Shown piece after piece: positions 29,801 to 64,000 of a stretch of 64,000 bases of DNA. Where the stretch lies: positions 14,479,075 through 14,543,074 of the forward strand of contig OZ038533.1 of assembly GCA_964036665.1 (NCBI GenBank), given 5' to 3'. Every line of letters begins with the position of its first letter. The stretch's first letter is position 1. Source of the DNA: Gordius sp. MW1. Lineage: Eukaryota > Nematomorpha > Gordioida > Gordea > Gordiidae. The notes under the pieces were generated by a model, which saw nothing but the letters and a program-made list of their open reading frames with translations, did no database searches and was not told the origin of the DNA. Both the position numbers and the translations under genes were made by a program.

Positions 29801-32800
29801 AATTGTTCGCGTATAATTTTTTTATTTTCGTTGTGTGTTGTGTACTGTACTCTATATGTTTTAATAAATTTTTTAATATATATGCACATTAAAAATCATA
29901 GTAATCTTTTATATTTGTTTTTTAATATAAAATTTTATTCAAATCTTTAAATTTTTTTCAAATCAAATCCGAATCTTTATTTTAATATTCGACGAATCTC
30001 GAATCGAATATTTTTTTAGTAAAAGAAATCGAATCCGAATTGAATACTAAAAATATTCGATTCGATTCGAAATCCAGAGGCGTAGTAGTTTACATGCCTT
30101 CGCCACTCTTACATTATTGTTTGCCCTTTTTTATAATTTGGTGGGTTTTGTAAGAAATTTGTTGATTTTTTAATAAAAAAACGTGGTCAAAATTTTAAAA
30201 ATATTGCGGGTAATTTGAATAAAAAAACTGTTGATTTTTTTAATTTTAAGACTGTAATTTTCTTAAGAATTTGGTGGTTTTTGTCAAAAATTTGTCTATT
30301 TTTTTGCCAAATTGTTTGATAAAAAAACTGTTATTTTTTAAATTTAAATTTTTAAAATTTATTACAAATATGAAATTTGAATGAAATATATTTTAAGGTT
30401 TTTAAAAAAAAATTTAGTTTTTACATTTTTACATATGTAAAACCTATACTTTATGAAATTGGTAAAAAAAATTAGAATGAACAATTTTATTTAATAAATA
30501 ATCAAATAAATATTTTAATTTAAACCTTAAAAATATTATTAAAAATTAAATAAAAATGTCATTCTATATTTTGAACTTGCGATTAAGTTAATTATGCTTT
30601 TTACAATTGTTGGTCCTTTAAAAAATTTAGCAAAAAATAGACAAATTTCTGACAAAACCACCAAATTTTTAAGAAAATTACAATCTTAAACTTAAAAAAA
30701 CCAACAGTTTTTTCATTTAAAAATTACCCGCAATATTTAAAATTGTATTCACGTTTTTTTATGTGTCGAATAATTATTTTCGTTAAGTGGGAAGGCTATC
30801 TGGTTGAAATAACTAAGGTTTCATAGTTTATTAAACTTCTTCACCATTGAAATCAAGAATGGGTCCTCTTAACATTAGATTCCATTATAAAATGTCATTT
30901 ACAATGGTATATGGGGGCAATTATAAAGACTTCTTTCGCCAAATTTAAACCCTTACCCAAATTAAAATAATGTTGCCCATATCTATTTAATGTTTTAAGT
31001 TTAATTTTATACAGATAATGTAATAGATACAGGTTTTTATGCGTAGTCTACATTAATGGGCAATGCAGTTGAGATGGAAAGTTTTTAAAGTAACAAAAAT
31101 TTTGACTTTCGTTGCTAGGAAATAATGTGCCCCTCTTTTAGCTCACTTTAAATTTTTTTTTATTGGTTAAAAAGTTTATTTTCACGAAACAAAGTTACAT
31201 AAATAAGTATAAAAATTGCTAGTTAGTTTATTAATGTTTGACTACGCAATATGATTCATTTTTCTTCTATGTGTCATATTTTTGTGTTTTACCAAATAAA
31301 CTAAAAACATACTACTGGTTAATATATTAAAATATTGTTAAGTGCTTAACGCCTTATCATCGATTAAATTGATATCGAACGAGCTTAATTTTATATTAAT
31401 GTTCCTTAAACTATTAATTCATTTCGTCATTGATAAATAATCCTAGCATTATTTTTAGGACTCTCCTCATTGAAAATAGAAGAATTAAATATAAATCAGT
31501 GATTTACTCTAATTGCCGAGCAAAAATACACGACGAATTTACGATTTTTTAAAGGGCACATTATTTCATCGCGATGAATCATTAAAGTCATAAATAGATT
31601 ATAACTAGCTGAACCCGGCAAACGTTGTTTTGCCATTTACCCGGGTGTATTAGCAGAATATATATCAACTTATAGATAAGTTTCAATAGATTAAGAATAT
31701 ATCAAATATAATTGGTAAGTGTTTATTATGCAAAGATTTTTAAACAAATAGTTAAAGAGGGTCCAAGGCCCAGGCCCACCTAAGAGAGAACTGGCCCCAT
31801 GCCCCCCCAAGGGAAAAATCTTTGGCCCCCTGGCCCTTTAAGCATTTTTTTTAATTTTTTGTAATTAAGAAACAATATCATAATTATAATTATTTGTTTC
31901 TGAATAAAACTTTTAATTCTGAACTTAATAATGTCCGAAGAACTGAGATATATCAACATTTATTGGCACTTTGTTAAAATTATTTTAATTTTTCTCCTTA
32001 TTTAAGGCGCAAAAAATGACAAAATTAGATTTTTTAATTTATTTAGCCACGCAGGAGGGGACACGACCGTCCTATAATAATACTCGGGCCTTCGGCCCTC
32101 GTGGGAAGGGGGAGAAGGGAAGGGAAGAGGGGAAGGGAAGGGGGGACGACTCATCTGTACTTCGTATAAATGTATCATATTTGCTATGCAATTTATGGGC
32201 GAGAAAGGTGGGAAGGGGCGAGAAAGGTGGGAAGGGGCGAGAATGCCTATAGGGGGGTATTAAATGCCTAATGATTAATTAATTATTTATACAAATTTTC
32301 CATTATAGGCAAAATGTAATATAGGCAAGGGTTAGGGTTAGATTTAGTGTTTGCTTCTAGTTGCGTATTACATTAGTTTTTATGGCCTTTAGTGATTATG
32401 GGTCTAACAAACATTATATTATAAAACAACACAATGTTAAGAATTTGCAGAATTGTTGGGAGAAATTTTTTGTTGAATTTGAACAATTTTTAATTAAAAA
32501 AATCAAAAATTTGGCCAATGGTCACTTTTTCTCTATTGGTCAGTACCAACAGATACTCTATAAGTCAATGATAGCCAAAAAAAAACGGAAAAAAAAAATT
32601 TTGATGCTCACTTTGGCCAATGGTCATTTTTTTCCATTGGTCAGCAGCCAGCACACGGTAAAAGTGGATATAAATTCATAAGAGTAAAAAAAACGAAAAA
32701 AAAAATTTCGAATCACATTTTGGCCAATGGTCATTTTTTTCCATTGGTCAGCAGCCAGGACACGGTAAAAGTGGATATAAATTCATAATAGTCAAAAAAA

Positions 32801-35800
32801 AACGAAAAAAAAGTTTTCGAATCACATTTTGGCCAATGGTCATTTTGTTCCATTGGTCAGCAGCCAGCGGACGGCCAAAAAGTCATAATAGCAATGGTAG
32901 TAACAGGAACAATCATACTACTGGACCGATTTGGCTCGAACAAATCTTAAAACATGCGCCCGAGTGTGAGGAATAAAATGTGAAATTTTGAGCCAAATCG
33001 GTAGGGTAGTTTTCCAAAATTGGTGGCGGCATAACATACACACATATATATATATACATAGTTTCATTTTTATATATAAGATTAATATTATTTCTCGAAA
33101 ATCAGATGTATTTTAACAATAAAATAGTATTAAGAATGCTCAATTTACCGAAGAATGCTCAAATTAACGTAGACCCGTTGAAATGTAAATAGATCAGTCG
33201 CCCAGCCAGTTAGATGAGGAATAAAAAAAGTCGTTTGGAGAGATACCAACCAAACGATTTCTATAAAAAGTGGTCACGTGATCGTAATAGTCTAAAGATC
33301 GTAAACAACAATAACAATGACGATAACTAGACTAATAATATTGTTAAGCAACTTATGTCGCCATTTTGAGATTCCTACAATGTAATTTTAACTATTTACA
33401 CTAAAGTTTCAAATTTTTTACACCGCATATTTGTTTTTCTTTGTTTCGGACTTTCGGTAGGTGATGATATAAGCTTAATATAAATATTTAAGGAATAGCG
33501 TTTAGTTCGTTAATCATCTCACACCATGGGCGTAGCCAAGGGAGGCAAAGAGGGGCGGCTGCCCCCCTTTCCAAAATTTGTTGAAAATTATTAAAATTAT
33601 GGCTAAAATTTCAGAAAACGATCATTTAGCCCCTTGTTAAAAATTATTATTGCCCCGTTTAATTCTAATGCTGGTAACGCCCATGGCCTACACCCTTAAT
33701 GAATTTCTATAGTATAATGATAACGACGCCTACCAATTCATCTTCTACGAAGGGCCGCGCCACGATGGGACGGTGGGTATCGAGGTAGTGGTAGGGCGGG
33801 GCCGGCTCTCGGGGGGTCACAACCTGACCCCACATCAACAAAGTGGGCGGCACGACGGGCTGGAGTTGGAGAGGCGGTGGAGCCATCATCCGTCGTAAGT
33901 AAGGACACCCTCCGCCTGGGGGGTGGTTGGCATAATGGGCGTGACTTACGGATCGACGATGATGAAAGGGTATCGGAGCGAGGGAGGGTTGTTGGTAATG
34001 AGGAATCACGTGATGCAAGGAAAGCGGGATCGCGGGCGGGGCTCGGCTCTGATACTGAGGGGTCGGCAGATGGTTGACCAGGGGTGGGGCCGTCCTTGGT
34101 ATGCTAAAGCAGACGATATGTTTGAGTAAAAATATGGATATTTATTTTAAACTAACAAGGAATATGGTAAAATTCTATACAAAAATACTTATAGGAGTAA
34201 AATCTTATGATTGTCATATATTTATTTTTTGTGCATGAGTGAGATTAGAATGCTGAATTTATCTTAAATATGGTAGTTTATTGTGGAAATGAGAATGTGG
34301 TCCTAAATAAAAAAAACTACAAAGTTATAAAAACAAAAGAGATTAATCAAGACATGGCATTTACCAGGTCAAAATGGAAACTCATTAAAACAAACTCCAC
34401 ATCTGTGGGACCAATAAGAAGACTGTAAAAACATAACATAAAAATTGTAAATATATGTTGTAAAGTTTAAATAATCTTTAATATAATGCCTTGTTAAAAA
34501 TTTAGAGTTAACTTGAAAAATGCTGATAGAAAGCAATTGGAACCCATTAAAAATAACAAACGGTTTAGTTGATTCATATTGCATAGATAATTAATCTAGA
34601 TATATTGGCACAAAATTTCTAAATAGATTATGTTACGGTTTTAGATACAATCTCTAAAACTTTATAGATAAATCTTTAAATTCGAAAGATAAATTTTTTA
34701 CAATTTAAATAACAAAGGTTCATCTTTGAAGCCAAGTGGTACAAAAATCATTTAGCTTTAAATGTAAGATACCTTTCTAAAAAACCATCATTTCTTATCT
34801 TCTTATATATTTTTGATTTGTTGCATTTTAAGTATCATTAGATTGATTAGAATTTTGTAAGATGGATAAAATAAATCCATTTTCAAATAAATTAATTAAT
34901 TTTTCTTGAAAATAAAAAAATTACAAGATTTAATAAACAACAACAAAAACGTCATGTTCATTAACATAAACAAGTGTTTAATATATCTTTGTCTGCTGAA
35001 TATGTTAAGATGTCAAAAAATATATAATATTATAACATAACAATAAATATTGAATTTATTAATATATTACATCCCTTTAAATTTTTTACTATACACCCCA
35101 ATTATTATTAAACAAGAACAAAAAACTTGATTCAAGCTCAGATTTTTGAGATATGTTAAAAATCTTATTGTTTCTTATATTGAATTATTGAAAGATGTTT
35201 AAACTTTTATCATAAAACAAAATAATTTTTTACTATATTTATATTCATTTTATTTCTAAGTTTCCATTTATATAAACATAAAATTTTATAAGAAATAGAA
35301 TAGCAAGAAATATTAGAAAAAGCATATAAAATCTAAAGTCAATAATTGTGGTATATAATCTTTACTTATACTTCTTATTTCTAATTGATATATCATGTTT
35401 TATTAAAAAATTTCAGTAAATCAATTCACTAAAATTGTAGAAAACTCTCTAAGGCAAAATTAACAATGAGTTGAAAATTCTCAAACTTTACTTTAACTTA
35501 GCATTATAATTTATAATATTACAACAAATGAAAAAAGACTGATTTTTAGGACCTTATTAATAGCAGCTCAATTTAAAAATAAAATGGGTTTAATTTAAGT
35601 TATTGACTAAATAAAACATAATTTAGGATTAGCAATGACTGACATATTGAAATAAAGTTTTTTAGACATAATGAAAGAATGCAACGCAAATCAGCTTTTA
35701 ATTAAGCTTATATTATTACCTGTGAGGTTCAAATTCTACACCAGCAGATGCGTTTGTTACACATCTCCTTCGATTTTCTGATTCAAGTGTTTGATTTCTA

Positions 35801-35943: not shown

Positions 35944-38194
35944 AATTATGTATGAGCGTAAACAGGTGACAAAGTAATCTTGAAATTAAAAATTTGCAAG
36001 TGTAAATGACACCCTGTCAAAGTGGCAGAAAAAAAGCAGCCAAATTGATCAGATCAAAATAGGTCAGGAGGGTTAGGGTTAGTGTTTTAGGTTGGCGTTT
36101 AAGGTTATAATTAGGATTAGGGTTATTTGCACATCAAATTCCCTCCCCATTTGAGATTCAATTCTAATATTTGATAATCTAAAAAAATATTTTTCTGCTA
36201 CTTTTACATCATTCTGCATCTTTGACCCCGATTCGTATAAAGCGCAATATAGCATGTGACACATAAAAAAATTTAATCATTGCAAAAAGGATAATAAAAT
36301 AAATTTTATTTATATTGAAAAGGCAAACGTGGCAGGTAATAATTTTGCCAAACTCTAGAACAAGACGGATAGCTCTCTATGCTCCATTATTTTATTTTAA
36401 ATCAATTGTATAAAGCGATCTTTCCTTTAAAACTCTGGCATAAATCGTAAATTTTGTCCTCTAGGTGATGATTATAGCCATAGAAGAATAAATGTTTCTT
36501 CATAAGTTCAGGCCGTAGTACTGGCAAATGTAAAAATAATAATGTTTATATTCTTCAGGATACAAAAAAGCAAAGGGTCGCTAGAAAATTGATAAAATAT
36601 ATCAAAAAAATTTTCTTCGAATGAAACTTTATTGTGAATATATCATACTTATTTTAAACGCAATAACACTAACAAGATGTGGAAAAAAGAATTTTTGTGC
36701 ACAGTGAAATAATTATGGGACGTTTCCTCCTGGATAGAAATTCTGACCCCTTTGACGTTTTTATAAAAAATTCTTGCCCCTTTACCCTTCCAAGAGAAAA
36801 ATTTTAACCCAAATGAATTAATTAAATAAAAAAATCACAATTATGACTTTTGAGCTAGCCTATTTTTACCCCGTTTAATATATTTCTTACATTTCTGCAT
36901 CATTTTTAATATGCAATGCGAGTAAAACTTAACTTGCCTATATTCCAAGGCAAAAGCTTCGAAGTTGTATCGAAGTATGAGAGTCCCGAGTCCTCGTCTA
37001 AAAAACAAGTGTAATAACGGGATCTCAAAAAGGTTTTCTAATTGCTTTACTTAAATTAATGGCTTGTTTAAGGGAAGCATAAAGCAACAACTGCTAATAT
37101 ATTGTGTGTCAAAGGGCATATTTTGTAATCTTACGCTTCTCAATAGCAACAAGGAAGTGGTGAGGGGCAAAAAAATTATGGCATATAAGGTCTTCTCATT
37201 TGAGGAATAAACCGTTTTCTCATGGTAATAATGATGAGACATCATGACGCCTCATCCTTCCATCCAAAGAAGGTCTGAGGACCCAAGGATTGAGGACTTG
37301 GCCTAATTAGGGGTGGCTTAAATGAATTCTTAGCTTTGTTATGCCTAATTTGTTTATTTTTTATTATCAGAAGATGGCATGTTTTTCAACTATGGTGAAA
37401 CAATTCTGACTAGAATATTCTTTAGTATAGCTAAACCCAAGCTATATGATATGAAAGCTTATAATATTTTAATATATTTAGTTGGCCCAAAAAGTGCAGA
37501 ATGAATTTAAGCCTTTATTAATAGCTTACAAACTAAATCTTTAAGCTAACAATAACACTTTATAATAAAGTAAATGACTTGCTTATTCCAAATTTTACGA
37601 ATCTGGCATTAATTCTTTTTTTGAAAACTTTAAAGCTGATTTGTTAGTTTATGAATATTCTTCATCTTTATTATGTCTTGGTCCCACATCGTGAGGTTTG
37701 TTTTGATAAGTTTCTTCAATCTTAATCGAATAAGGGCCGATCCAGGTTAATTTTCTCATCATAACTTTGTCTAATTGCCTTCACGTTACACAAGGTCGTC
37801 CTCTTCTTCTTTTATTTTAATGCCCCTCTATGTCCAAGACTTTTTATTACTTGAATTGCCTTCCTTTTTTATATGACCATAACACCTTAACAGATTTTTG
37901 TATATCAAGTTTGCCATGGGTTGTGTCATGTCGCCATGACGATCCGAAGGTCGTGCAATCAAGAAGGAGGTAACGAGGAGAGAAAGCGGCAAGCTATAAA
38001 TCAAGAAAAATAGCTAAAAACGTAAAAAAGGAGGAACAAAAATCCTTATTATGATGGATGATAAATAAAGATGTGGCCCGAGAAACGAATTAAAGGAATT
38101 AAATATCAAAAATGTAATTAAAGAAATCCAGAATCCTTGAAAATGGACTGTAAATTAAAAAATGGCGCGGAAAAATAGAGTGAAAAAACAATAA
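35944..38194. other. Upstream flank of the RING gene
   Basis: Probably contains the RING gene 5' UTR and promoter. A small inverted-repeat MITE is likely at about 36020-36215 (GTGGCAGAAAAA against TTTTTCTGCTAC), with 'ggttagggttag' inside. 37650-37800, reversed, has a weak retroelement-like stretch (KLTWIGPYSIKIEETY), too short to call. Confidence 0.4.
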
Positions 38195-39180
38195 CTCGGG
38201 CCTTCGGCCCTCGTGGGAAGGGGGAGAAGGGGAAGGGGAAGGGGAGAAGGGGAAGGGAAGGGGGGACGACTCATCTATACTCCGTATAAACGTATCATAT
38301 TTGCTATGCAATTTATGGGCGAGAAAGATGGGAAGGGGCGAGAATGCCTATAGGGGGGTATTAAATGCCTAATGATTAATTAATTATTTATACAAATTTT
38401 CCATTTATTGGCAAAATTTAATATAGGCAAAATGTAATATAGGCAAGGGTTATGGTTAGATTTAGTGTTTGCATCTAGTTGCGTATTACATTAGTTTTTA
38501 TGACCTTTAGTGATTATGGGTCTAACAAACATTATATTATAAAACATCACAATGTTAAGAATTTGCAGAATTGTTGGGAGAAATTTTTCGTTGAATTTGA
38601 ACAATTTTTAATTAAAAAAATAAAAAATTTGGCGAATGGTCATTTTTTCTCCATTGGTCAGTACCAACAGATACTCTATAAGTTAATGATAGCCAAAAAA
38701 CGGAAAAAAAATTTTGATGCTCACTTTGGCCAATGGTCATTTTTTTTCATTGGTCAGCAGCCAGCACAAGGTAAAAAATATAAATTCATAAGAGTAAAAA
38801 AAAACGAGAAAAAAATTTTCGAATCACATTTTGGCCAATGGTCATTTTTTTCCATTGGTCAGCAGCCAGGACACGGTAAAAGTGAATATAAATTCATAAT
38901 AGTCAAAAAAAACGAAAAAAAATTTCGAATTACATTTTGGCCAATGGTCATTTTATTCCATTGGTCAGCAGCAAGCGGAGGGCCAAAAAGTCATAATAGC
39001 AATGGTAGGAACAGGAACAATTATAATAGTAAAAAAAACGAAAAAAATAATTTCGATTCACATTTTGGCCAATGGTCATTTTTTCCATCGGTCAGGAGCC
39101 AGCGGACGGCCAAAAATTCTTATTATCAATGATAGTAACAAGAACAATCATAAGAGTCAAAAAAAACTCCGGGATTCTAA
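38195..39180 (+). repeat. Single dispersed copy of the array unit
   Basis: Same organisation as the 56.5-64 kb units but inverted: GGGCC-TTC-GGCCC hairpin, G-rich tract, 'aggcaagggtta' tract, then at least six ~110-120 bp sub-repeats each with CCAATGGTCA...CCATTGGTCAG, ending 'ctccgggatt'. The frame is open for 217 codons from 38479 because the sub-repeats lack stops in it; I do not regard that as an established gene. Confidence 0.8.
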
Positions 39181-39400
39181 CTAAAAAACTAGTTAAATTG
39201 CATAGCAATTAAAAGTAAACAACTTTTATTTATGTTTATTATATAATAGCTAATTTAAAAAATCTTATATATAACACACCGAGGGAGATAGAGATAAGGG
39301 GTGGGGCACCTCTTATGCATTAATTTAAAAAATAACACAGCGAGGGAGATAGAGATGAGGGGTGGGGCACCTCTTTCTTATGCTACCCATTAAGACCGGA
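39181..39400 (+). repeat. 60-bp minisatellite and GAGATAGAG repeat
   Basis: One copy of the AT-rich minisatellite (aattgcatagcaatt...ttatttatgtttatt) followed by two copies of 'gagggagatagagat(a/g)aggggtgg', the same order as around 56650-56880 in reverse. Confidence 0.7.
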
Positions 39401-47417: not shown

Positions 47418-48220
47418 CAATTAAATGTGGACGACAATGGTTTAAATTCCAAGATACAATAGTTGTTGCCAGGTGACTTGGTTTCATACAAATCTGTCGA
47501 TACAGTTTGCGATGCCAATGAAGCTGTAAATAATTCAATTGAGTTTTTCCATTTAATAGATTTGCCAGGCATGCCACCGCACCATTTACTTGAGGGTCTC
47601 CGGTAATTTTGATTCGCAATTTATACCATCACGGGTGTGCAATGGCACACCATTAGTCATTAAAAAATTAATGAAAAACGTTGTCGAAGTCAGCATTTTG
47701 AATGACAAGTTCCGAGGTGAAAATGTATTGCTGCCACAAATCCCTATGATTCCGATGTGCCCATTAAATTTAAACGCATTCAATTCCCAATTATATTGGC
47801 GTTCGCAATGACAATCAATAAGGCGCAAGGCCAAACGATGTCTATTTGTGGCTTAGATTTAGGCAGACCATGCTTTTCCCACGGACACCTACTATACGTG
47901 GTATGGTCTCACGTGGGCAAACCATTCAGTTTGTTTGTTTTGGTTAAAGACGAACTAACCAATAATATTGTATATTCTCTCGCACTTAGAGATTGATGTT
48001 GAATTATTTTTAATTGCTATAATCTGATGTATGTATGGCTATCAAATTTAATAAAGTATAAAGGATGAAATAAATTAATGTTTAGTGTATTGTCATTTTA
48101 TCAGCTATTATTGTCACAACGCTCCATTCCTATTTTAATCATAACCATATCCCCACACACTTATAGTATTTACTAAAATTAATGTATATATAGCAAAACA
48201 ACGTTTGCCGGGTCAGCTAG
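47418..48220 (+). mobile_element. Helitron 3' portion with helicase C-terminus
   Basis: Begins directly after an aattgcatagcaatt palindrome and ends AACGTTTGCCGGGTCAGCTAG followed by T, the same terminus as the element ending at 50787. It holds the helicase remnant described separately. The upstream two thirds of the element are missing. Confidence 0.8.
47425..47999 (+). pseudogene. Helitron PIF1-like helicase, C-terminal part
   Basis: The plus strand, with frame breaks, reads LPGDLVSYKSVDTVCDANEA, HLIDLPGMPPHHL, CNGTPLVIKKLMKNVVEVSI, GENVLLPQIPMIP, then FKRIQFPIILAFAMTINKAQ, CGLDLGRPCFSHGHL and FVLVKDELTNNIVYSLALRD, stop. This is the end of a PIF1-family helicase as found in Helitrons; AMTINKAQGQ is helicase motif VI-like. 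The helicase would unwind DNA during rolling-circle transposition. At least three frameshifts make it non-functional. Confidence 0.88.
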
Positions 48221-49360: not shown

Positions 49361-49906
49361 ATGAATGAATGAATGAATGAATGAATGAATGAATGAATGA
49401 ATGAATGAATGAATGAATGAATGAATGAATGAATGAATGAATGAATGAATGAATGAATGAATGAATGAATGAATGAATGAATGAATGAATGAATGAATGA
49501 ATGAATGAATGAATGAATGAATGAATGAATGAATGAATGAATGAATGAATGAATGAATGAATGAATGAATGAATGAATGAATGAATGAATGAATGAATGA
49601 ATGAATGAATGAATGAATGAATGAATGAATGAATGAATGAATGAATGAATGAATGAATGAATGAATGAATGAATGAATGAATGAATGAATGAATGAATGA
49701 ATGAATGAATGAATGAATGAATGAATGAATGAATGAATGAATGAATGAATGAATGAATGAATGAATGAATGAATGAATGAATGAATGAATGAATGAATGA
49801 ATGAATGAATGAATGAATGAATGAATGAATGAATGAATGAATGAATGAATGAATGAATGAATGAATGAATGAATGAATGAATGAATGAATGAATGAATGA
49901 ATGAAG
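49361..49906. repeat. (ATGA)n microsatellite, ~136 copies
   Basis: About 546 bp of ATGA repeated without a visible interruption. On the minus strand it gives an open frame of repeating SFIH because the 12-bp codon period contains no stop; this is not a gene. Confidence 0.97.
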
Positions 49907-56290: not shown

Positions 56291-58514
56291 TAAATATCTC
56301 ATTTAATAAAAATTAATGATAGATAAATAATGACATTTATATATAAATAGCATTTACTCAGAATAATCAACGTTGGACTATTTTATATTACATTTAAATT
56401 ATATATGCTTTCATCTTTCTCATTTAAAATATCTCATTTAATGATAATGAGAAAAATTCATCTTCTTCACCTATATATTTTCTCAAATAATCTATAATTA
56501 ATTGCTATGCAATTTATGGGCTCGTTTTTTGTTGTCCGTCCATCCGTCCGTCCGTCCGTTGTCGGTCCGTTACCCTCCTATCTATTTGCATTGGGTATAT
56601 TAGGTTATCGATTTTTTAAATTAATGCATGAGAAAGAGGTGCCCCACCCCTCATCTCTATCTCCCTCGCTGTGTTATTTTTTAAATTAATGCATAAGAGG
56701 TGCCCCACCCCTCATCTCTATCTCCCTCGGTGTGTTATATATAAGATTTGTTAAATTATCTATTATATAATAAACATAGATAAAAGTTGTTTACTTTTAA
56801 TGCTATGCAATTTAACTAGTTATATAATAAACATAAATAAAAGTTGTTTACTTTTTAATTGCTATGCAATTTAACTAGTTTTGGGGTTAAAATCCCGGAG
56901 TTTTTTTGACTCTTATGATTGTTCTTGTTACTATCATTGATAATAAGAATTTTTGGCCGTCCGCTGGCTGCTGACCAATGAAAAAAATGACCATTGGCCA
57001 AAATGTGAATCGAAATTATTTTTTTCGTTTTTTTTGACTATTATGATTGTTCCTGTTTCTACCATTGCTATTATGACTTTTTGGCCGACCGCTGGCTGCT
57101 GACCAATGTTATATAATAAACATAAATAAAAGTTGTTTACTTTTAATTGCTATGCAATTTAACTAGTTTTTAGGTTAGAATCCCGGAGTTTTTTTGACTT
57201 TTATGATTGTTCTTGTTACTATCATTGATAATAAGACTTTTTGGCCGTCCGTTGGCTGCTGACCAATGAAAAAAATGACCATTGGCCAAAATGTGTATCT
57301 GAGTTTATTTTTTCGTTTTTTTTTACTATTATGATTGTTCCTGTTACTACCATTGCTATTATGACTTTTTGGCCGTCCGCTGGCTCCTGACCGATGGAAA
57401 AAATGACCATTGGCCAAAATGTGAATCGAAATTATTTTTTTCTTTTTTTTTGACTATTATGATTGTTCCTGTTCCTACCATTGCTATTATGACTTTTTGG
57501 CCGTCCGCTGGCTGCTGACCAATGGAATAAAATGACCATTGGCCAAAATGTGATTCGAAAACTTTTTTTTCGTTTTTTTTTTGACTATTATGAATTTATA
57601 TCCACTTTTACCGTGTCCTGGCTGCTGACCAATGGAAAAAATGACCATTGGCCAAAATGTGATTCGAAATTTTTTGTCTTTGTTTTTTTTACTCTTATGA
57701 ATTTATATCCACTTTTACCGTGTGCTGGCTGCTGACCAATGGAAAAAAATGACCATTGGCCAAAGTGAGCATCAAAATTTTTTTTTCCGTTTTTTTGGCT
57801 ATCATTGACTTATAGAGTATCTGTTGGTACTGACCAATAGAGAAAAAGTGACCATTGGCCAAATTTTTGATTTTTTTAATTAAAAATTGTTCAAATTCAA
57901 CAAAAAATTTCTCCCAACAATTCTGCAAATTCTTAACATTGTGTTGTTTTATAATATAATGTTTGTTAGACCCATAATCACTAAAGGCCATAAAAACTAA
58001 TGTAATACGCAACTAGATGCTAACACTAAATCTAACCCTAACCCTTGCCTATATTACATTTTGCCTCTAATGGAAAATTTGTATAAATAATTAATTAATC
58101 ATTAGGCATTTAATACCCCCCTATAGGCATTCTCGCCCCTTCCCACCTTTCTCGCCCATAAATTGCATAGCAAATATGATACATTTATACGAAGTACAGA
58201 TGAGTCGTCCCCCCTTCCCTTCCCCTCTTCCCTTCCCTTCTCCCCCTTCCCACGAGGGCCGAAGGCCCGAGTTTTTTTAATTGCTATGCAATTTATGGGC
58301 TCGTTTTTTGGTGTCCGTCCGTTGTCCGTTACCCTCCCTATCTATTTGCATTGGGTATAATAGGTTATCGCTTTTTTAAATTAATGCATGAGAAAGAGGT
58401 GCCCCACCCCTCATCTCTATCTCCCTCGCTGTGTTATTTTTTAAATTAAGAGGTGCCCCACCCCTCATCTCTATCTCCCTCGGTGTGTTATATATAAGAT
58501 TTGTTAAATTATCT

Positions 58515-58755
58515 ATTATATAATAAACATAAATAAAAGTTGTTTACTTTTAATTGCTATGCAATTTAACTAGTTATATAATAAACATAAATAAAAGTTG
58601 TTTACTTTTAATTGCTATGCAATTTAACTAGTTTTTGTTATATAATAAACATAGATAAAAGTTGTTTACTTTTAATGCTATGCAATTTAACTAGTTATAT
58701 AATAAACATAAATAAAAGTTGTTTACTTTTTAATTGCTATGCAATTTAACTAGTT
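58515..58755 (-). repeat. 60-bp minisatellite (four copies)
   Basis: Four tandem copies of a ~60 bp unit 'ttatataataaacata(a/g)ataaaagttgtttactttt(t)aatt' ending in gctatgcaatttaactagtt. The same unit occurs twice at 56757-56880 and 61192-61310, and once at about 57107, 61537, 62716 and 63895, always just before the start of an array unit. Confidence 0.88.
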
Positions 58756-59896
58756 TTGGGGTTATCCCGGAGTTTTTTTGACTCTTATGATTGTTCTTGT
58801 TACTATCATTGATAATAAGAATTTTTGGCCGTCCGCTGGCTGCTGACCAATGAAAAAAATGACCATTGGCCAAAATGTGAATCGAAATTATTTTTTTCGT
58901 TTTTTTTTACTATTATGATTGTTCCTGTTACTACCATTGCTATTATGACTTTTTGGCCGTCCGCTGGCTCCTGACCGATGGAAAAAATGACCATTGGCCA
59001 AAATGTGAATCGAATTTATTTTTTTCGTTTTTTTTGACTATTATGATGTTCCTGTTCCTACCATTGCTATTATGACTTTTTGGTCGTCCGCTGGCTGCTG
59101 ACCAATGGAACAAAATGACCATTGGCCAAAATGTGATTCGAAAACTTTTTTTTCGTTTTTTTTGACTATTATGAATTTATATCCACTTTTACCGTGTCCT
59201 GGCTGCTGACCAATGGAAAAAAATGACCATTGGCCAAAATGTGATTCGAAAATTTTTTTTTCGTTTTTTTTACTCTTATGAATTTATATCCACTTTTACC
59301 GTGTGCTGGCTGCTGACCAATGGAAAAAAATGACCATTGGCCAAAGTGAGCATCAAAAATTTTTTTTTCCGTTTTTTTGGCTATCATTCACTTATAGAGT
59401 ATCTGTTGGTACTGACCAATAGAGAAAAAGTCACCATTGGCCAAATTTTTGATTTTTTTAATTAAAAATTGTTCAAATTCAACAAAAAATTTCTCCCAAC
59501 AATTCTGCAAATTCTTACATTGTGTTGTTTTATAATATAATGTTTGTTAGACCCATAATCACTAGAGGCCATAAAAACTAATGTAATACGCAACTAGATG
59601 CAAACACTAAATCTAACCCTAACCCTTGCCTATATTACATTTTGCCTTTATTACATTTTGCCTATAATGGAAAATTTGTATAAATAATTAATTAATCATT
59701 AGGCATTTAATACCCCCCTATAGGCATTCTCGCCCCTTCCCACCTTTCTCGCCCATAAATTGCATATCAAATATGATACATTTATACGAAGTACAGATGA
59801 GTCGTCCCCCCTTCCCTTCCCCTCTTCCCTTCCCTTCTCCCCCTTCCCACGAGGGCCGAAGGCCCGAGTTTAGTTTGAATTTATTTATTTCAGGTT

Positions 59897-60115
59897 AATT
59901 CATAAATTTTATGTTGTCACCGTTAAGAAAAGATGACGTTTAAGAAATTTAATTCATAAATTTTATGTTGTCTTGTCACCGTTAAGAAAAGATGACGTTT
60001 AAGAAATTTAATTCATAAATTTTATATTGTCACCGTTAAGAAAAGATGACGTTTAAGAAATTTAATTCATAAATTTTATGTTGTCACCGTTAAGAAAAGA
60101 TTACGTTTTACAAAC
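59897..60115. repeat. ~55-60-bp tandem repeat (four copies)
   Basis: Four copies of 'aattcataaattttatgttg' followed by 'tcaccgttaagaaaagatga' and 'cgtttaagaaattt' interrupt the Helitron array. The second copy has an extra 'tcttg'. It is unrelated to the array units. Confidence 0.85.
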
Positions 60116-60925
60116 TACTATAAGTGATACACTTTTACTACAGAACTGTCTGTATATTCAAATTTTCAACGAACGCGAGGAGGTGCGTTTGATTAACATT
60201 TTATTGAACGTCAAAACGCATAAAACCCAATATATCGAAAACTAAAAGGAATTTTAGGATTCTGAAAAAGCTATTTTACCCCTGGCCGCCCTGGGAACCT
60301 AGGGGTAAATTTTCGCGCGAATCGGACCGGTAGTTTCAGAATTTAGCTCTTACATATATACATATATTACTTGCTATGCAATTTATGGGCTCGTTTTTGG
60401 TTGTCCGTTGTCCGTCCGTTGTCCGTTACCCTCCCTATCAATATTGGGTATATTAGGTTATCGATTTTTGAAATTAATGCATGAGAAAGAGGTGCCCCAC
60501 CCCTCATCTCTATCTCCCTCGCTGTGTTATTTTTTAAATTAAAGCATAAGAGGTGCCCCACCCCTCATCTCTATCTCCCTCGCTTTCGGGCGGGGTCGGA
60601 TTTTAATTGCTACGTTAAATTAATGCATAAGTATATCTATTCGTTTTTGAATTGGGTAACATTGATATTAATTGCTATAATTACCCTATGCCCTCCACTA
60701 CAAGGGCCTATGCCTCTACTGATATGGGTCCCTGTGCCCCTACAAAAGCCTATGCCTCTATTAATGTGGGTTCGAACCCCGGCGAACGTTCTGAATTGTT
60801 GGTTCGATTCCCGGAGAGGGCAAAATTTTTTTTTATTTTTTAAATTAAATTAATATATTTCTCCTGTTACTACCATTGATAATATGACTTTTTGGCCGTC
60901 CGCTTGTTCTATTATTGTTTCATTT
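60116..60925. other. Helitron fragment and tRNA-like segment within the array
   Basis: 60235-60350 is a piece of the Helitron body ('ttttaggattctgaaaaagc', 'cgcgcgaatcggaccggtag'). 60680-60835 has two 'aagcctatgcctcta' copies, GGGTTCGAACCCCGG and GGTTCGATTCCCGGAGAGGG, then a T-run, i.e. two B-box-like motifs. The rest is array module DNA with the palindrome at about 60370 and 60928. Confidence 0.6.
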
Positions 60926-63900
60926 TTAATTGCTATGCAATTTATGGGCTCGTTTTTTGGTTGTCCGTCCGTTGTCCGTTGTCCGTCCGTTGTCCGTTAC
61001 CCTCCCTATCTATTTGCATTGGGTATATTAGGTTATCGATTTTTTAAATTAATGCATGAGAAAGAGGTGCCCCACCACTCATCTCTATCTCCCTCGCTGT
61101 GTTATTTTTTAAATTAATGCATAAGAGGTGCCCCACCCCTCATCTCTATCTCCCTCGGTGTGTTATATATAAGATTTGTTAAATTATCTATTATATAATA
61201 AACATAGATAAAAGTTGTTTACTTTTAATGCTATGCAATTTAACTAGTTATATAATAAACATAAATAAAAGTTGTTTACTTTTTAATTGCTATGCAATTT
61301 AACTAGTTTTGGGGTTAGAATCCCGGAGTTTTTTTTACTCTTATGATTGTTCATGTTACTATCATTGATAATAAGAATTTTTGGCCGTCCGCTGGCTGCT
61401 GACCAATGAAAAAAATGACCATTGGTCTAAATGTGAATCGAAATTATTTTTTTCGTTTTTTTTTGACTATTATGATTGTTCCTGTTTCTACCATTGCTAA
61501 TGACTTTTTGGCCGTCCGCTGGCTGCTGACCAATGTTATATAATAAACATAAATAAAAGTTGTTTACTTTTAATTGCTATGCAATTTAACTAGTTTTTGG
61601 GTTAGAATCCCGGGTTTTTTTGACTCTTATGATTGTTCTTGTTACTATCATTAATAATAAGACTTTTTGGCCGTCCGTTGGCTGCTGACCACTGAAAAAA
61701 ATGACCATTGGCCAAAATGTGAATCCGAGTTTATTTTTTCGTTTTTTTTGACTATTATGATTGTTCCTGTTACTACTATTGCTATTATGACTTTTTGGCC
61801 GTCCGCTGGCTCCTGACCGATGGAAAAAATGACCATTGGCCAAAATGTGAATCGAAAATATTTTTTTCGTTTTTTTTTTGACTATTATGATTGTTCCTGT
61901 TCCCACCATTGCTATTATGACTTTTTGGCCGTCCGCTGGCTGCTGACCAATGGAATAAAATGACCATTGGCCAAAATGTGATTCGAAAACTTTTTTTTCG
62001 TTTTTTTTTTGACTATTATGAATTTATATCCACTTTTACCGTGTCCTGGCTGCTGACCAATGGAAAAAATGACCATTGGCCAAAATGTGATTCGAAATTT
62101 TTTGTCTTTGTTTTTTTTACTCTTATGAATTTATATCCACTTTTACCGTGTGCTGGCTGCTGACCAATGGAAAAAAATGACCATTGGCCAAAGTGAGCAT
62201 CAAAATTTTTTTTTCCGTTTTTTTGGCTATCATTGACTTATAGAGTATCTGTTGGTACTGACCAATAGAGAAAAAATGACCATTGGCCAAATTTTTGATT
62301 TTTTTAATTAAAAATTGTTCAAATTCAACAAAAAATTTCTCCCAACAATTCTGCAAATTCTTAACATTGTGATGTTTTATAATATAATGTTTGTTAGCCC
62401 CATAATCACTAAAGGCCATAAAAACTAATGTAATACGCAACTAGATGCAAACACTAAATCTAACCCTAACCCTTGCCTATATTACATTTTGCCTATATTA
62501 CATTTTGCCTATAAATGAAAATTTGTATAAATAATTAATTAATTTTTAGGCATTTAATACCCCCTATAGGCATTCTCGCCCCTTCCCACCTTTCTCGCCC
62601 ATAAATTGCATAGCAAATATGATACATTTATACGAAGTACAGATGAGTCGTCCCCCCTTTCCTTCCCCTCTTCCCTTCCCTTCTCCCCCTTCCCACGAGG
62701 GCCGAAGGCCCGAGTTATTATATAATAAACATAAATAAAAGTTGTTTACTTTTAATTGCTATGCAATTTAACTAGTTTTTGGGTTAAAATCCCGGAGTTT
62801 TTTTGACTCTTATGATTGTTCTTGTTACTATCATTGATAATAAGACTTTTTGGCCGTCCGCTGGCTGCTGACCAATGAAAAAAATGACCATTGACCAAAA
62901 TGTGAATCCGAGTTTATTTTTTCGTTTTTTTTTTACTATTATGATTGTTCCTGTTACTACCATTGCTATTATGACTTTTTGGCCGTCCGCTGGCTCCTGA
63001 TTGATGTAAAAATGACCATTAGCCAAAATGTGAATCGAAATTATTTTTTTCGTTTTTTTTGACTATTATGATTGTTCCTTTTCCTACCATTGCTATTATG
63101 ACTTTTTGGCCGTCCGCTGGCTGCTGACCAATGGAATAAAATGACCATTGGCCAAAATGTGATTCGAAAAGTTTTTTTTCATTTTTTTTGACTATTATGA
63201 AATTATATCCACTTTTACCGTGTCCTGGCTGCTGACCAATGGAAAAAAATGATCATTGGCCAAAATGTTATTCGAAAATTTTTTTTTCGTTTATTTTACT
63301 CTTATGAATTTATATCCACTTTTACCGTGTGCTGGCTGCTGACCAATGGAAAAAATGACCATTGGCCAAAGTGAGCATCAAAATTTTTTTTCCCGTTTTT
63401 TTGGCTATCATTGACTTATAGAGTATCTGTTGGTTCTGACCAATAGAGAAAAAATGACCATTGGCCAAATTTTTGATTTTTTTAATTAAAAATTGTTCAA
63501 ATTCAACAAAAAATTTCTCCCAACAATTCTGCAAATTCTTAACATTGTGATGTTTTATAATATAATGTTTGTTAGACCCATAATCACTAAAGGCCATAAA
63601 AACTAATGTAATACGCAACTAGATGCAAACACTAAATCTAACCCTAACCCTTGCCTATATTACATTTTGCCTATATTACATTTTGCCTATAAATGAAAAT
63701 TTGTATAAATAATTAATTAATTATTAGGCATTTAATACCCCCCTATAGGCATTCTCGCCCCTTCCCACCTTTCTCGCCCATAAATTGCATAGCAAATATG
63801 ATACATTTATACGAAGTACAGATCAGTCGTCCCCCCTTTCCTTCCCCTCTTCCCTTCCCTTCTCCCCCTTCCCACGAGGGCCGAAGGCCCGAGTTATTAT

Positions 63901-64000
63901 ATAATAAACATAAATAAAAGTTGTTTACTTTTAATTGCTATGCAATTTAACTAGTTTTTGGGTTACAATCCCGGAGTTTTTTTTGACTCTTATGATTGTT

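Follow-up and report, generated by a model that had tools for sequence, protein, structure and literature searches.

The final part of a 64,000-nucleotide stretch of the Gordius sp. MW1 genome (the window, C7:14479075-14543074, from an assembly of 211.8 Mb in 12 contigs) carries a cluster of related repeats that starts at 56496, overruns the window and ends at about 69420 in window numbering. The sequence beyond the window was read as far as 73926 (extension L041; positions there are given in window-plus-L041 numbering). The repeats are in all likelihood non-autonomous Helentron-type elements (HINEs) with ends of their own, and the best explanation of the cluster, which we strongly favour, is that single HINEs inserted into T runs, that some of them nested within others, and that local unequal exchange followed. 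An original prediction, made from the window alone, had read the repeats as a satellite of 1.1 kb units derived from a Helitron, possibly by rolling-circle read-through past a terminal hairpin.

A complete element opens at its 5' end with TTAATTGCTATGCAATTTATGGGCTCG, carries at its centre T-rich repeats of 107-128 bp bearing CCAATGG..CCATTGG hairpins, and closes with GGGCC-GAA-GGCCC-GAG, the palindrome stopping three bases short of the end. The complete copies in the cluster (u1, u2, A3 and B3) are 1597-1953 bp long. In u1, the first of them, the terminal features are placed as follows.

56502..56521, plus strand: 5' subterminal repeat, TTGCTATGCAATTTATGGGC, 20 bases, with the palindrome ATTGC-TAT-GCAAT
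58153..58173, plus strand: 3' subterminal repeat, the 5' end of u1 in inverted copy, 98 bp away from the 3' end
58256..58271, plus strand: 3' terminal hairpin (DNA fold -5.2 kcal/mol)

This anatomy agrees with that given for HINEs, including DINE-1, in the passages of PMC4067079 that deal with them: palindromic subterminal inverted repeats (subTIRs) near both ends, a short palindrome just before the 3' end, central tandem repeats, T-rich or TT insertion sites bordered by a variable number of T, high copy number and clustering. The subTIRs of our element, one at the 5' end and its inverted counterpart near the 3' end, are 20 bases long versus 12-15 bp in the mite families described there, and the 3' subTIR lies 98 bp from the 3' end, unlike the 38-60 bp of the mite HINEs, a range that is stated for the mite families and not for all HINEs. 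The target is T-rich and is not duplicated beyond T; in the sequence examined T directly follows the 3' end in 41 of 41 cases and occupies the next three positions in 93, 88 and 83%, and two empty sites are described below. Canonical Helitrons are recognised by a TC start, a hairpin, a CTRR end and insertion at an A|T target, a combination that the units, with ends of their own and a T-run target, do not show. The 5' palindrome also recurs internally: there are 98 such occurrences in the sequence examined, seven of them in an unusual context, and at one of these seven a unit starts from the internal copy directly after a 3' end (L033:2243-2300). Being a single case, this led us to abandon the idea that units can generally start from the internal palindrome as well, and internal copies may serve as an occasional start.

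The repeats themselves are real. As had been claimed, the window holds four same-strand units each ending in a GGGCCGAAGGCCC hairpin (at 58256, 59853, 62699 and 63878), and the internal sub-repeats are also borne out, with 6-7 ACCATTGGCC half-sites per unit (n=4 units, at most one substitution) and 27 perfect CCAATGG..CCATTGG hairpins over the first 69.5 kb when window and extension are joined, where 20 single-base shuffles gave a mean of 0. The proposed unit size of 1095-1110 bp comes close to that of the 3' module shared by the four units (from the GACTCTTATGATTG motif to the hairpin, 1076-1093 bp), but the element itself begins well upstream of this module in three of the four (u1 1776, u2 1597 and A3 1791 bp; the fourth only 1179 bp). 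Units repeating head to tail every 1.1 kb, on the other hand, are not what the window contains, since successive hairpins are 1597, 2846 and 1179 bp apart and the second element is followed by 495 bp of other DNA. Taken apart element by element, the cluster is made up as follows; A-type and B-type are our own labels for element variants, and the last two rows are in window-plus-L041 numbering.

56496..58271, plus strand: u1, complete A-type HINE of 1776 bp, with 5' end TTAATTGCTATGCAATTTATGGGC, central CCAAT repeats and 3' hairpin GGGCCGAAGGCCCGAG
58272..59868, plus strand: u2, A-type HINE of 1597 bp, adjoining u1 via seven T; the nearest relative of its 5' part is not u1
60364..60923, plus strand: B1, 5' part of a B-type HINE, cut at GTTTCATTTT
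60924..62714, plus strand: A3, complete A-type HINE of 1791 bp, nested in B1 within a T run
62715..63893, plus strand: T1, 1179 bp, an extra copy of the B1 3' part; a mosaic whose left part is that of T2 and whose right end is that of A3
63894..65065, plus strand: T2, the other B1 3' part (in the window to 64000, the rest in window-plus-L041 numbering)
from about 65087, resuming at 67500-68769: B2, cut by B3
65546-67498: B3, nested in B2 within a T run

Two of these elements, B1 and B2, are each split by a nested relative, and in both cases the empty site is present in other copies. The sequence into which A3 inserted is found uncut, as TTTCATTTTATTATATAAT, in L013, L022, L026, L027, L041, L046 and L048 (at most two substitutions), and the T run that received B3 is intact in B1 and also, with four edits at most, in further copies. 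The whole cluster has eight 3' hairpin ends, all on one strand (58256, 59853, 62699, 63878, 65050, 67483, 68754 and 69404, the last of them changed), versus six 5' ends, and identity among u1, u2, A3, T1 and T2 is 94.5-98.1%. The only tandem module-length units in the extension to 73.9 kb are T1 and T2, with other nested elements after them, so that a satellite organisation of the 1.1 kb unit is absent. The cluster is very probably a pile-up of same-strand insertions comprising one abutting pair, two elements split by nested relatives and one extra unit. Two smaller features were seen here: a 54-bp tandem repeat of about four copies (59895-60114) inside the 495 bp separating u2 from B1 and, at 60760-60830 in the B-type element, GGTTCGAACCCCGG and GGTTCGATTCCCGG, which we take to resemble tRNA B boxes.

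The extra unit, T1, is moderately supported as the product of an exchange between the nested and the host element. If the 3' half of A3 had exchanged with the B1 3' part, the resulting unit should be T2-like on its left and A3-like on its right; this model preceded the alignment, one A3/T1 variant near their ends having already been spotted by eye. An alignment of seven units gave 53 informative columns, that is, columns where A3 differs from T2 and T1 matches one of them. To the left of column 1228 T1 is T2-like at 34 of 37 informative columns, and from there on it is A3-like at 14 of 16 (seven of the 14 being one deletion in T2); the changeover falls somewhere from column 968 to column 1228. 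At the five columns that do not conform, the state is private, or nearly so, to T2 or A3. When only states private to a pair are counted, nine sites shared by T1 and T2 lie to the left and two shared by T1 and A3 to the right. An origin by exchange is supported further by the repeated start junction GAG|TTATTATATAATAAAC, which T1 and T2 have in common. Gene conversion would give the same pattern in T1 as crossing-over, the process we infer here.

The same element is dispersed throughout the genome. Its 25-base 3' end was matched 4,780 times at up to two mismatches (2378 plus, 2402 minus; backwards control 0), and relatives were found on contigs C1-C8. The 23-base 5' end, which to judge by eye is common to other subfamilies, gave 8653 matches at up to one mismatch (4322 and 4331 on the two strands; control 0). 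The regions L021-L040 are the first 20 of those listed for C1, and copies sampled outside the cluster were mostly single. The window itself holds one dispersed copy away from the cluster.

38193..39383, minus strand: dispersed HINE copy with an intact 3' end

Single copies without Helitron ends and with another target signature, which the original prediction had itself named as an outcome that would count against it, are therefore what the genome contains. In one further observation, a 5' end from a different subfamily is nested at both L043:2557-3090 and L048:2066-2600, with the same 25-base flank on its left, which is what movement of a composite element would look like.

Exact 3'-to-5' head-to-tail junctions within 30 bp are far in excess, at 129 (58 plus, 71 minus; control 0) with about 3.0 expected by random placement. 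Such an excess would also be favourable to rolling-circle read-through past the 3' hairpin, giving units joined head to tail that would integrate together as a single concatemer and later become a satellite. Read-through has already been proposed for Helitrons, in sections of both PMC4067079 (where tandem Helitron clusters are attributed to bypassed termination, and related Helentron insertions are said to cluster) and PMC12628747. It predicts that abutting units are sisters. Eleven junctions were examined, seven of which could be tested in this respect in that the 5' ends of both abutting units are present; the dimer loci L042-L048 among them were hand-picked from 100 listed junctions, two of them for paired close junctions, and are not a random sample. 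At five of the seven (u1/u2, L043, L044, L045 and L046) some other copy is closer than the neighbour: with identity taken over the first 215 bases, the unit upstream ranks 20, 2, 10, 24 and 37, respectively, of 60. At one of the two junctions of L042 it ranks 2, surpassed by nothing but the third unit of that array, and at the other 1. Ranks by score, which also depends on length, are in line with these (16/53, 2/56, 17/55, 6/51, 6/55, 2/56 and 1/57). Independent insertion therefore fits most of this non-random sample. The 3' modules give a similar picture in part, those of L044 being 3.5% apart with dispersed relatives of each at 0.8 and 1.2%, and that of u1 being 1.3% from u2 and 0.6% from dispersed copies; in L046 the neighbour and the best dispersed copy lie about equally far off, at 2.4 and 2.2%, respectively. 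The spacers are varied as well: among the 100 of 129 junctions that were listed, 64 spacers are of 10 bases or fewer and 55 are distinct.

How the cluster came to be on one strand may lie in the elements themselves. Runs of at least five T outnumber those of A on the plus strand of each complete copy (26/9 in u1, 22/9 in u2, 27/9 in A3 and 29/9 in B3), with a weaker bias for runs of at least four (34/22 in u1), whereas in the first 56 kb of the window T and A runs of at least five are even, at 5.8 vs 6.3 per kb. Around the first 100 exact 3' ends on C1, neighbours within 2.5 kb are on the same strand in seven cases and on the opposite strand in two (p 0.09; 4.6 pairs expected in total), and the corresponding counts are 10/6 at 5 kb, 15/9 at 10 kb and 23/23 at 20 kb, so that the same-strand excess on C1 is suggestive only. 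For an element requiring T on its own strand, T-biased relatives would tend to favour direct orientation. It is conceivable, and we put it forward as a tentative proposal which is somewhat more doubtful than not, that the central repeats of HINEs are a strand-polarised landing pad for their own family, by which tandem arrays could seed themselves with neither target duplication nor read-through; such a landing pad may be the cause of the strand bias.

The sequence of events that we favour would then be as follows. HINEs would insert singly in T runs, with T kept at either border; the T-rich repeats at their centre and the T runs that border them would offer further landing sites, so that new copies would settle beside or inside older ones on the same strand. 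Related copies in direct order would then permit unequal exchange between their shared 3' halves, which adds a unit, T1 being one putative product. Mobilisation would be by an unseen autonomous Helentron.

Several observations weigh against this account. The 28 of the 100 listed spacers that consist only of T plus AA could be exact end joins, as read-through would make them; the u2 3' module is equally near to u1 (1.3%) and to the best dispersed copy (1.2%); and the units of L042, three in number with two identical TTTATTAA spacers and 3' modules as close to the neighbour as to a dispersed copy (1.2 vs 1.2%), are mutually nearest relatives. L042 is a real local tandem, which exchange or read-through could each have produced. 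Tail-to-tail pairs within 30 bp number 0, though with only 0.84 expected this says little. The chance of the split of private sites in T1, 1 in 55, was calculated on sites selected after the alignment had been viewed, and the same-strand excess on C1 is weak at wider range and gone by 20 kb. No autonomous Helentron gene with HINE ends was found among 16 opened Rep loci, in a search that was shallow (150 of 714 candidates scored; 16 loci opened and compared by tblastn).

Read-through nevertheless has to contend with the neighbours at five of seven junctions, the variety of the spacers and the two elements of the cluster that nested insertions have split and whose uninterrupted sites occur in other copies; nor does a cluster with eight 3' and six 5' ends show the signature known from plants, a single 3' end with many 5' ends. 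Read-through past the hairpin is thus not supported as the main cause, and we consider it unlikely as an explanation of the cluster. Growth of the 1.1 kb module into long arrays through unequal exchange, with just their edge showing in the window, could claim T1 and T2, in tandem with the same junction and with T1 recombinant-looking. In the extension, however, no further module-length units join this tandem, nothing of the cluster can be recognised beyond about 69420 and copies sampled elsewhere are mostly single, so that a true satellite is highly improbable, and the satellite status originally assigned does not stand. An equally slim chance is given to an assembly artefact: units that are 94.5-98.1% alike make mis-joins of similar dispersed copies possible, but the empty sites, the differing junctions, the divergence of the units and the contiguity of the assembly all speak against it.

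The link to Helitrons had been made through one copy of the unit that lies elsewhere in the window, within an element that does have the TC start, hairpin and CTAG end ascribed to it, on the minus strand.

31605..33081, minus strand: canonical Helitron with TC start, GGCAAA..TTTGCC hairpin and CTAG end, read directly and by hairpin fold
32083..32917, minus strand: 5'-truncated HINE nested in this Helitron, with an exact 3' end

The Helitron belongs to a separate multi-copy family: its right flank was matched at 39 other places and its left flank also at eight of these (40 of 2048 candidates scored). A retroelement identity was rejected for it on account of the TC, hairpin and CTAG. With up to three mismatches allowed, the 211.8 Mb contain the inner boundary between HINE and Helitron just once, which rules out the unit as a component of a TC..CTAG Helitron. 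At the eight other places with both flanks, 158-205 bp of other sequence lie between them; the HINE insertion was therefore accompanied or followed by a deletion. The 3' module of the nested HINE is identical to that of a copy on C1 (L035). It is clear that this copy is a nested insertion with deletion and not the source of the dispersed family. Of the proposed Helitron derivation there remains a Helitron-like element of the rolling-circle type with internal tandem repeats. Canonical TC...CTAG Helitrons share the genome with the HINEs but differ from them in ends and target, and only host one nested HINE.

An autonomous-looking Helitron, L050, encodes a protein of 1437 aa with Rep and PIF1 helicase domains, and all 16 of the Rep loci opened, L050 itself being one, resemble this protein. 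An autonomous partner near HINE ends was not found in L049-L052; in L049 a HINE 5' end lies about 3.6 kb upstream of Rep/helicase remains, and the 10 kb examined contain no 3' end of a HINE. Upstream of the Helitron gene, at L050:300-3000, direct repeats of roughly 130-150 bp were seen by eye. In the window, a Helitron-type helicase fragment (47424-47987; 40% identical to the L050 protein at its residues 1247-1437) adjoins a minus-strand HINE-type 5' end.

HINE clusters and nesting are already in print, and so is double insertion with subsequent exchange; what is unusual here is how legibly the history is preserved. A likeness by description is found in the oyster, where Cg_HINE elements are reported in part of PMC7492417 as dispersed HINEs with satellite-like central arrays and oligo-T targets. 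Oyster Helitron loci, in the portion of PMC12628747 that treats them, are shuffled, nested and tandemised, with insertions within other elements. Unlike in those portions of the two papers, the nesting sites and the mosaic unit are here resolved base by base. Also similar is the route of McGurk and Barbash 2018, as summarised in the review PMC12628747, by which dimers arise from insertion-site preference and then expand by unequal exchange; double insertion is tied there to target duplications, whereas our units have none beyond T and keep T on both sides. The HINE passages of PMC4067079 offer a close anatomical parallel, the autonomous partner, sought here by the shallow search above, being a point of difference. 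Among the paper titles listed in a literature search, none was exactly on nested same-strand clusters in T runs. A common small element that lands in T runs beside or inside its relatives would be an ordinary start for a tandem repeat, and here an unusually readable one; the change from transposon to tandem repeat is usually visible only afterwards, and at this place its first steps are legible. The 129 exact junctions in one genome make insertion preference and rolling-circle read-through testable against each other. Elsewhere in the window, at 49361-49905, there is a perfect ATGA microsatellite of 136 copies (100% matches).

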